64,000 nucleotides of DNA, from contig NZ_CP046051.1 of NCBI RefSeq assembly GCF_013315815.1, forward strand, positions 1,549,501-1,613,500. The letters run 5' to 3'. Positions 55,020-58,202 of this stretch are shown here, piece by piece. Source of the DNA: Caproicibacterium lactatifermentans (GTDB lineage Bacteria > Bacillota > Clostridia > Oscillospirales > Acutalibacteraceae). The position numbers and the translations under genes are program-made. Each line of letters begins with the position of its first letter. The stretch's first letter is position 1. A model generated the notes under the pieces. It had not been told where the DNA came from. It did not search any database and saw nothing but the letters and a program-made list of their open reading frames with translations.

Positions 55020-56966
55020 ATGTTCTATCAGACAACAAACGAGCAGGAAGCACTGCGCACAAAGGTACGGTCTTTTGCCGAAAGTGACATCAAGCCGCAG
55101 GCTTTTCTGCTAGACAAAGGGAATACTTTTCCAAAAGAAACAGTTAAAAAAATGGCCGAGCTTGGCTTGATGGGACTGCCCTATGACACCCGCTTCGGTG
55201 GCGCTGGACTGGACATGGTCTGCTATGCCATTGCTGTGGAAGAACTTTCCCGCGTGGATGGCGGTGTCGGTATTATTCTTTCTGCGCACACCTCCCTGGG
55301 AACCTGGCCCATTGACGCCTTTGGCACAGAATCACAGAAACAAAAGTATTTGGTTCCGCTGTGCCGCGGTGACAAATTGGGCGCTTTTGGGCTGACAGAA
55401 CAAAACGCCGGCAGCGATGCGGCTGGAATGGAAATGACCGCTGTACGGCACGGCGACTATTATATCCTAAATGGCAGTAAAATTTTTATTACCAACGGCG
55501 GTGAAGCCGATACTTACGTTGTCTTTGCCGTCACACAGCCCGGAAACGGTGTGCACGGCATTTCCGCTTTTATTGTAGAAAAAGGCTGGGAAGGCCTTAC
55601 ATTCGGAGAGCATTATGACAAAATGGGCATTCGCTCCTCCGCTACCTGTGAACTGCACTTTCAAAATGTAAAAGTGCCGAAGGAAAATCTGCTGGGCAAG
55701 GAAGGCGAAGGCTTTTCCATTGCCATGAAGACACTGGACGGCGGTCGCATCGGCATTGCCGCACAGGCATTGGGCATTGCTCAAGGTGCATACGAAGCGG
55801 CACTGGACTACGCAAAAGAGCGGGTACAGTTCGGCAAACCAATTTGTCAGCAGCAGTCCATTGCATTTAAGCTGGCGGATATGGCCACCAAGCTCCGTGC
55901 GTCCCGTCTGCTTGTCTACAGTGCTGCTGAGCTGAAACAAAGCCACGCTGACTACAGTAAAGAGGCAGCCATGGCAAAGCAGTTTGCCTCTGACGCGGCA
56001 CTGGAAATCACCAATGACGCACTGCAAATTTTCGGCGGCAGCGGTTACTTAAAAGGTATGGACGTCGAGCGGTTCTACCGTGACGCGAAAATCACCTCCA
56101 TATATGAAGGCACCAATGAAATTCAGCGTATGGTCATTGCTTCCCATATTCTTAGTACGGCAAAGAAAGAACCTCCGGCGGAAAAGAAGCTGACTGCTGC
56201 CCAGCGGCTGCTTGCCCGCGCCGCGAAATATGCACAGCCTGTGCAGACAGCTGGCACCCGCAAGTGCATTCTCCTGAAAAAAGGCACCGCAGAAGAACGT
56301 GTGGATTCGCTGGTAAAAAATCTGCAGCAGGAAGGCATTGACTTCACCGTTGGAATGCCAATAGATACACCGATAGCAAAAGCCGACCGTGTGGTCAGTG
56401 CCGGTTTGGGCATTGGTGCTCGGGAAAATATGAAGCTAATCGAAGATTTGGCCAAAGCAGCTGGTGCCGCCGTTGGTTCTTCTCGCCCTGTTGCCGAGTC
56501 GCTGAAATATGTACCGATTGACCGTTTTATCGGCATTTCCGGTCAAAAATTCCACGGCAGTTTGTATATTGCCTGCGGTATTTCCGGTGCCGGTCAACAT
56601 TTAAAGGGCATTCAGGACGCCACTCTTGTAGTTGCCATCAATACAGATGAAGACGCCAATATCTTTAAAAACTGTGACTATGGTATTGTAGGCGACATAA
56701 AAGAAATCCTGCCTCTGCTGACCAAAGCACTGGATACCGGCGCACCCAAAAAGCCAGAAGCTCCTTTGCCGAAGGCGGCGCCCGCACCGGCACCCGCTCC
56801 CCGCAAGATTTACGTCTGCAGCGGCTGCGGTTACGAATACGACCCCGCCAAGGGGGACCCGGAGAGCGGTATCCTGCCCGGCACGCCGTTTGAGGACCTG
56901 CCCGCCGGCTGGACCTGCCCCTACTGCGGAGCCACAAAAGAAGAATTCATTGAAACAGTCGTTTAA
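55020..56966 (+). CDS. Acyl-CoA dehydrogenase / EtfA FAD domain / rubredoxin fusion
   Basis: The 648-residue protein has three electron-carrying parts. Residues 1-380 are a butyryl-CoA-type acyl-CoA dehydrogenase (FGLTEQNAGSD, YEGTNEIQRMV with catalytic Glu near 363). Residues about 410-575 match the C-terminal FAD domain of electron-transfer flavoprotein alpha (VGSSRPVAES, SGQKFHGSLYIACGISGAGQHL, VVAINTD, DYGIVGD). A Pro/Ala linker leads to a C-terminal rubredoxin (residues 597-645) with C600, C603, C633 and C636. The EtfA N-terminal domain and EtfB are absent, so the bifurcating flavin site is missing. The likely path is acyl-CoA to FAD to EtfA-FAD to the rubredoxin iron. A flavodiiron protein gene follows 30 bp downstream. 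The start ATG follows AAAGGAGG. Confidence 0.92.
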   Translation: MFYQTTNEQEALRTKVRSFAESDIKPQAFLLDKGNTFPKETVKKMAELGLMGLPYDTRFGGAGLDMVCYAIAVEELSRVDGGVGIILSAHTSLGTWPIDAFGTESQKQKYLVPLCRGDKLGAFGLTEQNAGSDAAGMEMTAVRHGDYYILNGSKIFITNGGEADTYVVFAVTQPGNGVHGISAFIVEKGWEGLTFGEHYDKMGIRSSATCELHFQNVKVPKENLLGKEGEGFSIAMKTLDGGRIGIAAQALGIAQGAYEAALDYAKERVQFGKPICQQQSIAFKLADMATKLRASRLLVYSAAELKQSHADYSKEAAMAKQFASDAALEITNDALQIFGGSGYLKGMDVERFYRDAKITSIYEGTNEIQRMVIASHILSTAKKEPPAEKKLTAAQRLLARAAKYAQPVQTAGTRKCILLKKGTAEERVDSLVKNLQQEGIDFTVGMPIDTPIAKADRVVSAGLGIGARENMKLIEDLAKAAGAAVGSSRPVAESLKYVPIDRFIGISGQKFHGSLYIACGISGAGQHLKGIQDATLVVAINTDEDANIFKNCDYGIVGDIKEILPLLTKALDTGAPKKPEAPLPKAAPAPAPAPRKIYVCSGCGYEYDPAKGDPESGILPGTPFEDLPAGWTCPYCGATKEEFIETVV

Positions 56967-56996
56967 TTGGATACGATATAAGGAGGTCTTTCCACG

Positions 56997-58202
56997 ATGT
57001 ATTGCTTTCGAAAAGTGACAGACGACCTGTATTGGGTCGGTGCAGATGACCATCGTCTTGCCCTGTTTGAAAATATCCACCCACTGTACCACGGCATTTC
57101 CTATAACTCCTACCTGCTGCTGGACGAAAAAACGGTCCTGTTTGATACCGTGGACTGGGCCGTTGGCCGTCAGTTTATGGAAAATGTCCGTGCTGTCCTG
57201 CGCAACAGGCCACTGGACTATCTGGTTATCAATCATGTGGAACCGGACCATGCTGCGTCGATTGAGGAAGTTCTGCTTCGCTGGCCAAACGTAAAGATTA
57301 TTACATCCCCCAAGGCTGTGCTGCTTCTGCATCAGTTTGGCTGCCCGATTGACGGCTGTTCTGTGGAGCAGGTAAAGGAAGGCGACACCCGCTGTTTCGG
57401 AAAGCACACCGTCACGTTTGTCAACGCACCCATGGTGCACTGGCCGGAAGTGATGGTGACCTATGACCAAACCAACGGTGTTCTGTTCTCTGCCGATGCC
57501 TTTGGTTCCTTCCATGCATTGGACGGCAAGCTGTTTGCCGATGAGGTGGATTTTGACCATGAATGGCTGGATGAAGCACGCCGCTATTACACAAATATTG
57601 TCGGAAAATACGGTCCACAGGTACAGTCACTGCTGAAAAAAGCCGACACACTAGACATTAAGATGATTTGCCCGCTGCACGGTCTGGTCTGGCGCAAAGA
57701 CATTGGATATTTTCTGGATAAATATATGCACTGGAGCACCTATGAGCCGGAAGAAAAAGGCGTGATGATTGTTTATGCCTCTATGTATGGCAATACAGGA
57801 ACCGCTGCGGAGATTTTGGCCGCCAAGCTTGCCGAGCGCGGTGTGACGAACACGCGCCTATACGACGTTTCCAGCACACACGTTTCCTATCTTATCTCTG
57901 ACCTATTTAAATACAGTCATTTGGTACTGGCAAGCGTTACCTACAATCTGGGGATCTTTCCACCCATGCACAACTTTCTAATGGACATGAAGGCCCTGAA
58001 CCTGCAGAACCGCACCTGTGCTATCATAGAAAACGGCTCCTGGGCCTGCCGCTGCGGCAGCCTGATGCGCACCTGCCTGTCCGAAATGAAGCATATGCGA
58101 GTACTGGAAGACGGCGTCGTAATGGCTTCGTCTCTGCATGAGCAGGACCTGCCGGAACTGGATACACTGGCTGACAGCCTTACTGCCTCTCTCAAAGAAT
58201 AA
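56997..58202 (+). CDS. Flavodiiron protein (FprA-type, O2/NO reductase)
   Basis: The 401-residue class A flavodiiron protein joins a metallo-beta-lactamase domain (residues 1-250) with diiron ligands H80, E82, D84, H85, H148, D167 and H228, to a flavodoxin domain with the FMN loop YASMYGNTGTAAE near 260. All metal ligands are present. Such proteins reduce O2 to water or NO to N2O with electrons from rubredoxin. It carries no rubredoxin of its own, and the preceding gene ends in one, so the two should form a pair. Confidence 0.94.
   Translation: MYCFRKVTDDLYWVGADDHRLALFENIHPLYHGISYNSYLLLDEKTVLFDTVDWAVGRQFMENVRAVLRNRPLDYLVINHVEPDHAASIEEVLLRWPNVKIITSPKAVLLLHQFGCPIDGCSVEQVKEGDTRCFGKHTVTFVNAPMVHWPEVMVTYDQTNGVLFSADAFGSFHALDGKLFADEVDFDHEWLDEARRYYTNIVGKYGPQVQSLLKKADTLDIKMICPLHGLVWRKDIGYFLDKYMHWSTYEPEEKGVMIVYASMYGNTGTAAEILAAKLAERGVTNTRLYDVSSTHVSYLISDLFKYSHLVLASVTYNLGIFPPMHNFLMDMKALNLQNRTCAIIENGSWACRCGSLMRTCLSEMKHMRVLEDGVVMASSLHEQDLPELDTLADSLTASLKE

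Follow-up and report, generated by a model that had tools for sequence, protein, structure and literature searches.

A window of 64,000 nucleotides from the genome of Caproicibacterium lactatifermentans, the whole stretch of DNA analysed here, carries two adjacent genes that very probably belong to the family of the butyryl-CoA oxygen oxidoreductase (BOOR). The first (55020-56966, +; P0001, 648 residues) encodes a fusion of a butyryl-CoA dehydrogenase, the C-terminal flavin adenine dinucleotide (FAD) domain of EtfA and a rubredoxin, a protein type named BCR, and the second (56997-58202, +; P0002, 401 residues) encodes a class A flavodiiron protein (FDP). In Fusobacterium nucleatum, the FDP FN1423 is bicistronic with a gene for a butyryl-CoA dehydrogenase, EtfA C-terminus and rubredoxin fusion, and BCR and FDP form an alpha4-beta4 complex, BOOR, which couples the oxidation of butyryl-CoA to the reduction of O2 to H2O, as a 2025 review states (PMC12288474). 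The review gives Bystrom & Wolthers 2024 as the primary characterisation, and a 2025 paper in the Journal of Biological Chemistry names the F. nucleatum loci FN1423-FN1424 (PMC12630350). A literature search for BOOR by name listed this review and this paper together with a 2026 preprint (PMC13404960), and nothing else. The chain is thus already published for F. nucleatum, and we rejected the idea of a categorically new electron chain for this reason; the window pair adds another member. Our analysis places an experimentally known route of O2 disposal in a further anaerobe that has a butyryl-CoA pathway, and it supplies counts of the gene linkage.

The fusion gene and its flavodiiron neighbour

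The fusion is encoded by a single uninterrupted frame on the forward strand, as are all parts of the pair described here, and its ATG start is preceded by AAAAAGGAGG. The acyl-CoA dehydrogenase part (55035-56153, about residues 6-378) contains Glu363 within the motif YEGT, which we take to be the catalytic base, and is followed by the EtfA FAD domain (56373-56735, about residues 452-572), which has its counterpart by homology in the EtfA chains of solved structures, by a Pro/Ala linker (56736-56807) and by the rubredoxin domain (56811-56948, residues 598-643) with Cys600, Cys603, Cys633 and Cys636. The initial annotation had described this arrangement from the letters of the DNA, and Pfam agrees with it, placing Acyl-CoA_dh N/M/1 at residues 6-377, ETF_alpha at 452-532 and Rubredoxin at 598-643, all well over their cut-offs. 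That the EtfA N-terminal domain and EtfB are missing from the frame was likewise borne out, with Pfam finding no PF01012 in it. The fusion therefore has no bifurcating flavin site, and its identity as a bifurcating Bcd-Etf was rejected. The nearest sequence of the dehydrogenase part in the PDB is Bcd of the Clostridioides difficile Bcd-EtfAB complex (5ol2_C, E 4.9e-136), matches of the EtfA part include EtfA chains (1efp_A, E 1.5e-28; 5ol2_A, E 3.9e-24), and those of the rubredoxin part include rubredoxins (1e8j_A, E 7.5e-23). Among 25 of 30 listed matches of the fusion, no NCBIfam model exceeds its cut-off.

The FDP gene begins after an intergenic gap of 30 bp (56967-56996), and its product carries HVEPDH (80-85), His148, Asp167 and His228, presumably the ligand positions. 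Pfam finds ODP beta-lactamase and flavodoxin domains in this protein and no rubredoxin domain, so that the frames and Pfam together confirm the rubredoxin-less FDP first noted behind the fusion. In the PDB it matches FDPs including rubredoxin:oxygen oxidoreductase 1e5d. A chance open frame or a misassembly was rejected, as the best 120 of 8000 homologues share the domains and the frame is open in a genome that consists of one contig of 1,989,979 bases. The shared domains, together with the checked cofactor and ligand positions, which are invariant wherever the domain is present, confirm that the observation of a fusion with an FDP is real and far beyond chance.

Conservation, gene linkage and transcription signals

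The window fusion was aligned with 87 loci, namely the best 80 of 242 confirmed related loci, which also served as the linkage set, and seven from genomes of the same family; the FDP alignment held 80 sequences including that of the window, with FDP frames of 300 residues or fewer left out. Glu363 is conserved in all 88 rows. The EtfA-domain positions Arg489, Ser522, His527 and Asn541, which we checked, are presumably related to the cofactor, and seven positions of this domain are conserved in 87 of 88 rows, the remaining row being a gap. The four rubredoxin cysteines are present in 85 of 88 rows, and the three gaps belong to a frame broken by a stop (L006), an open frame of 595 residues (L064) and a protein without the rubredoxin domain (L092). 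All seven FDP ligand positions are conserved (80/80).

The initial annotation had proposed the linkage of fusion and FDP genes in relatives as a check, and this linkage proved to be conserved: of the 80 related loci, 77 have an FDP downstream of the fusion and on its strand, and the distance is no more than 100 bp in 64 of these 77 and no more than 300 bp in 73. One or more open frames lie between the two genes in four loci (L004-L007), and a contig end cuts the FDP in L020, L055 and L065. An FDP is lacking in three loci; in L009 and L015 this coincides with a contig end, and the third is L053. At L088 (L102) the FDP is again directly downstream on the strand of the fusion. Among 200 whole genomes sampled from the family, 14 were over the threshold, six of them with plain dehydrogenases only, and eight carry a fusion; the FDP is adjacent in seven of these eight, and the eighth (G051) has a form without rubredoxin. 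The six other paired FDPs of the family genomes are 68-71% identical to that of the window, while unpaired FDP matches in the fusion genomes show 26-32% identity, with one exception of 56% in the window's own genome. At E 1e-165, matches occur in 28 of 394 genomes of the order sample and 6 of 398 of the phylum sample; both counts include the window's genome, and among the six of the phylum sample one (G654) is rubredoxin-less.

Two observations on individual loci may be added. At L006:11921-12763 and L007:9917-10786, a related open frame of 281-290 residues lies between fusion and FDP. At L051:13320-15872 (+), the BOOR pair is directly followed by a gene for an 851-residue multidomain FDP-like protein with parts that by eye resemble rubredoxin and pyridine-nucleotide-disulfide reductase.

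Upstream of the window pair, a sigma-70-type promoter-like site, TTGACA-17-TATACT (54883-54911, +), agrees with the consensus at 11 of 12 positions. Six such sites were found where shuffled sequences gave 3.8 on average (sd 1.8), only slightly fewer, and the match is therefore suggestive at most. A strong hairpin after the FDP gene (58210-58265, +; z = -5.5) is a probable transcription terminator. With a promoter-like site on one side and this hairpin on the other, the fusion and FDP genes look like one two-gene transcription unit, as far as such sequence patterns can tell. In 25 of the 87 loci, Rrf2-like genes of one similarity cluster adjoin the pair, directly upstream and on the same strand as oriented in 21 of the 25, and each carries 4 to 9 cysteines; the cluster owes its label to its sequence and to the resemblance that the genes of two loci bear to the Rrf2 gene of the window. 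This neighbourhood agrees with the 2026 preprint, according to which BOOR pairs of gut Clostridia have a regulator of the Rrf2 type, NsrR-like, as their neighbour (PMC13404960).

Electron route and alternative readings

The initial annotation had proposed that electrons pass from acyl-CoA through the dehydrogenase FAD, the EtfA FAD, the rubredoxin and the FDP to O2, a route that agrees with the review's account of the F. nucleatum pair (PMC12288474). By this analogy, the dehydrogenase domain would oxidise butyryl-CoA, possibly longer acyl-CoA here, to the enoyl-CoA and its FAD would be reduced; the EtfA FAD domain, tethered on flexible linkers, would carry electrons singly to the tethered rubredoxin; and the rubredoxin would reduce the FDP, the product of a separate gene, first at its flavin mononucleotide and then at its diiron site, whereupon the FDP would reduce O2 to water. 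The crotonyl-CoA formed could be reduced again by the genome's Bcd-EtfAB. For the window pair, we observe the domains, the conserved cofactor positions, the gene pairing, the homology and the genome partners; from these we infer its activity, the range of its substrates, the sequence of single electron steps and its role in the cell, whereas complex formation and activity are reported for F. nucleatum (PMC12288474). The initial annotation had also suggested that the chain could drain reduced acyl-CoA without bifurcation. Such a drain would not be a simple loss of energy, because the review argues that crotonyl-CoA can return to the bifurcating Bcd-Etf (PMC12288474).

The genome provides the setting for such a route. 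It holds a separate bcd-etfA-etfB set beside genes for a FAD-linked oxidase and lactate racemase (L098:5527-11433, -) and an Rnf operon of six genes, with RnfC over the cut-off. A 3-hydroxyacyl-CoA dehydrogenase domain is encoded as well, and the sequence suggests that the organism forms butyrate. All eight fusion genomes contain EtfAB-type domains, and six have RnfC over the cut-off. As a side observation, the bcd-etfA-etfB set with its oxidase and lactate racemase genes is reminiscent of the lct clusters in PMC12630350.

Several points weigh against assigning the window pair to BOOR. Close homology to a Fusobacterium BCR supports the assignment, with 67% identical and 80% positive positions along 648 residues, but the protein compared is one named acyl-CoA dehydrogenase family protein of Fusobacterium perfoetens (P0173), and the likeness to FN1424 rests on its description. 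The AlphaFold monomer of the fusion, built with 29 sequences, is of moderate quality (mean pLDDT 76.2, pTM 0.59). Its confidence is low in the linkers at residues 380-412, after the dehydrogenase, and 583-592, within the Pro/Ala linker, as expected in such a model for a swinging domain, and it is low also inside folded parts (126-137, 201-205, 341-348, 490-497 and 505-508), so that the model neither proves nor measures the geometry of electron transfer. In a Foldseek search with this model, the best 50 of 866 matches are all acyl-CoA dehydrogenases by title (4l1f by chain name); the fold search is therefore silent on the EtfA and rubredoxin parts, for which the assignment comes from sequence. 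Moreover, other electron routes exist in the genome, which has a stand-alone rubredoxin-like match and a second FDP (G000:C1:1797514-1798707; L097:5491-6711, +) with no fusion beside it; at 56% identity, this FDP is closer to that of the window than are the unpaired FDPs of seven relatives (26-32%). Finally, the fusion of L053 (L053:3584-5530; titled Roseburia hominis An869) has no FDP in the 10 kb downstream.

The last two points, together with another, weak match that the rubredoxin region has within a 229-residue frame of the window's genome, are also what speaks for a different main acceptor, whereby the rubredoxin domain would feed rubrerythrin-type peroxidases or the second FDP and the adjacency of the FDP gene would reflect shared regulation only. 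We consider this very unlikely given the close spacing of the two genes in most of the 77 linked loci and the alpha4-beta4 complex that both proteins form in F. nucleatum (PMC12288474). That the pair might reduce nitric oxide in nitrosative defence, an alternative raised in the initial annotation, draws on the FDP's best PDB sequence matches, which are named anaerobic nitric oxide reductase flavorubredoxin, and on the cysteine-rich Rrf2-like genes beside the pair, whose counterpart in the preprint is NsrR-like (PMC13404960). Ligands alone do not reveal the substrate preference of an FDP. The review reports that the F. nucleatum complex has no nitric oxide reductase activity (PMC12288474), which leaves this alternative unsupported, and we regard it as extremely improbable. 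Rubredoxin potentials are close to that of butyryl-CoA, so that the step may be reversible and the fusion might also reduce enoyl-CoA with electrons from reduced rubredoxin. The review puts the butyryl-CoA potential at -10 mV (PMC12288474). Against this reading, the genome has a conventional Bcd-EtfAB for that direction and the conserved neighbour is an FDP that reduces O2 in F. nucleatum, so we give this reading virtually no credence. Oxidation of butyryl-CoA with O2 as the acceptor is the reading that we retain for the window pair.

Rubredoxin-less relatives and known systems

A search with the rubredoxin-less protein of G051 showed, among the best 120 of 8000 matches, fusions without PF00301, mostly of 560-584 residues and some named C. 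pasteurianum and C. tyrobutyricum. In the family of G992, at least 8 of 206 genomes carry such a fusion among the matches listed, and the loci of these eight were read together with those of G051 and G654, in stretches of 14 to 16 kb each. Neither an FDP nor a rubredoxin match was found in any of these ten stretches. In G051, a desulfoferrodoxin (superoxide reductase) gene directly precedes the fusion and a hemerythrin gene follows it (L101:6058-8753, -; Pfam), and the stretch of 14 kb gave no FDP match. A multicopper-oxidase-like gene follows the fusion on the same strand in two genomes that belong to a single genus (L167:4836-8268, -; L212:5697-9254, -). The other seven loci (L134 and L213-L218) showed no FDP, desulfoferrodoxin, hemerythrin or multicopper oxidase match nearby. 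A conserved partnership with superoxide reductase was therefore rejected, as desulfoferrodoxin with hemerythrin occurs in one of ten loci, the multicopper-oxidase-like gene in two and neither at L134, which comes from a different family within the phylum; no partner is conserved across the ten loci read. By eye, the fusions of L216-L218 adjoin Mrp-type ATPase, Fur-like and NifU-like genes, and L101:688-1980 (-) holds four tandem, very similar open frames of 97 residues that look barstar-like.

We rooted a tree of 56 fusion rows, in which one protein stands under two names (L213 and P0150), on the Bcd of the window's genome. It groups the 34 rubredoxin-bearing fusions in one clade (support 0.76, but 0.13 with only the dehydrogenase columns) and 21 of the 22 rubredoxin-less fusions in another (0.81; 0.93 on the dehydrogenase columns), with L134 outside both. 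These supports and the placement of L134 indicate the order of events only weakly. It is conceivable, although we think it rather unlikely, that there is a wider family of tethered acyl-CoA dehydrogenase-EtfA modules that deliver electrons to different terminal oxidant sinks, namely to an FDP via the fused rubredoxin in BOOR, with the window BCR as one branch, to superoxide reductase via its own Fe(Cys)4 centre at L101 and possibly to multicopper oxidase at L167 and L212, and that the rubredoxin is a later addition. Our literature search found no title on rubredoxin-less fusions, which does not prove that they are unpublished; one paper that it listed deals with a multidomain FDP-like flavoprotein of Syntrophomonas wolfei (PMC3582634). 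Fusions lacking both the rubredoxin and an adjacent FDP may be the only part of our findings that is new, and they could matter more than the window pair.

Among known systems, the BOOR pairs of gut Clostridia (PMC13404960) are the same gene pair as that of the window, and both same-genus relatives sampled (n=2) also have an Rrf2-like gene, richer in cysteine, directly upstream of the fusion. In contrast, no Rrf2-like gene lies directly upstream of the window fusion, and the nearest Rrf2 gene (60347-60781, -; Pfam) is downstream on the other strand and encodes a single cysteine. With Bcd-EtfAB (5ol2), the fusion shares a dehydrogenase part closest to chain C and an EtfA FAD domain homologous to chain A, but EtfB and the EtfA N-terminal domain are absent and a rubredoxin has been added. 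Flavorubredoxin and the multidomain NADH:O2 FDPs (PMC12288474) have the same FDP core and likewise use rubredoxin as the proximal donor, whereas Pfam places no rubredoxin on the window FDP; it sits on the acyl-CoA dehydrogenase instead, and the electrons would come from acyl-CoA and not from NAD(P)H. The closest likeness is to BOOR of F. nucleatum, with which the window shares the three-domain fusion in the same order, the bicistronic pairing with a class A FDP as the next gene and, in its genome, the partners Bcd-Etf and Rnf that the review lists (PMC12288474); the organism is another, and activity was seen in F. nucleatum whereas the window pair is known from its genes.

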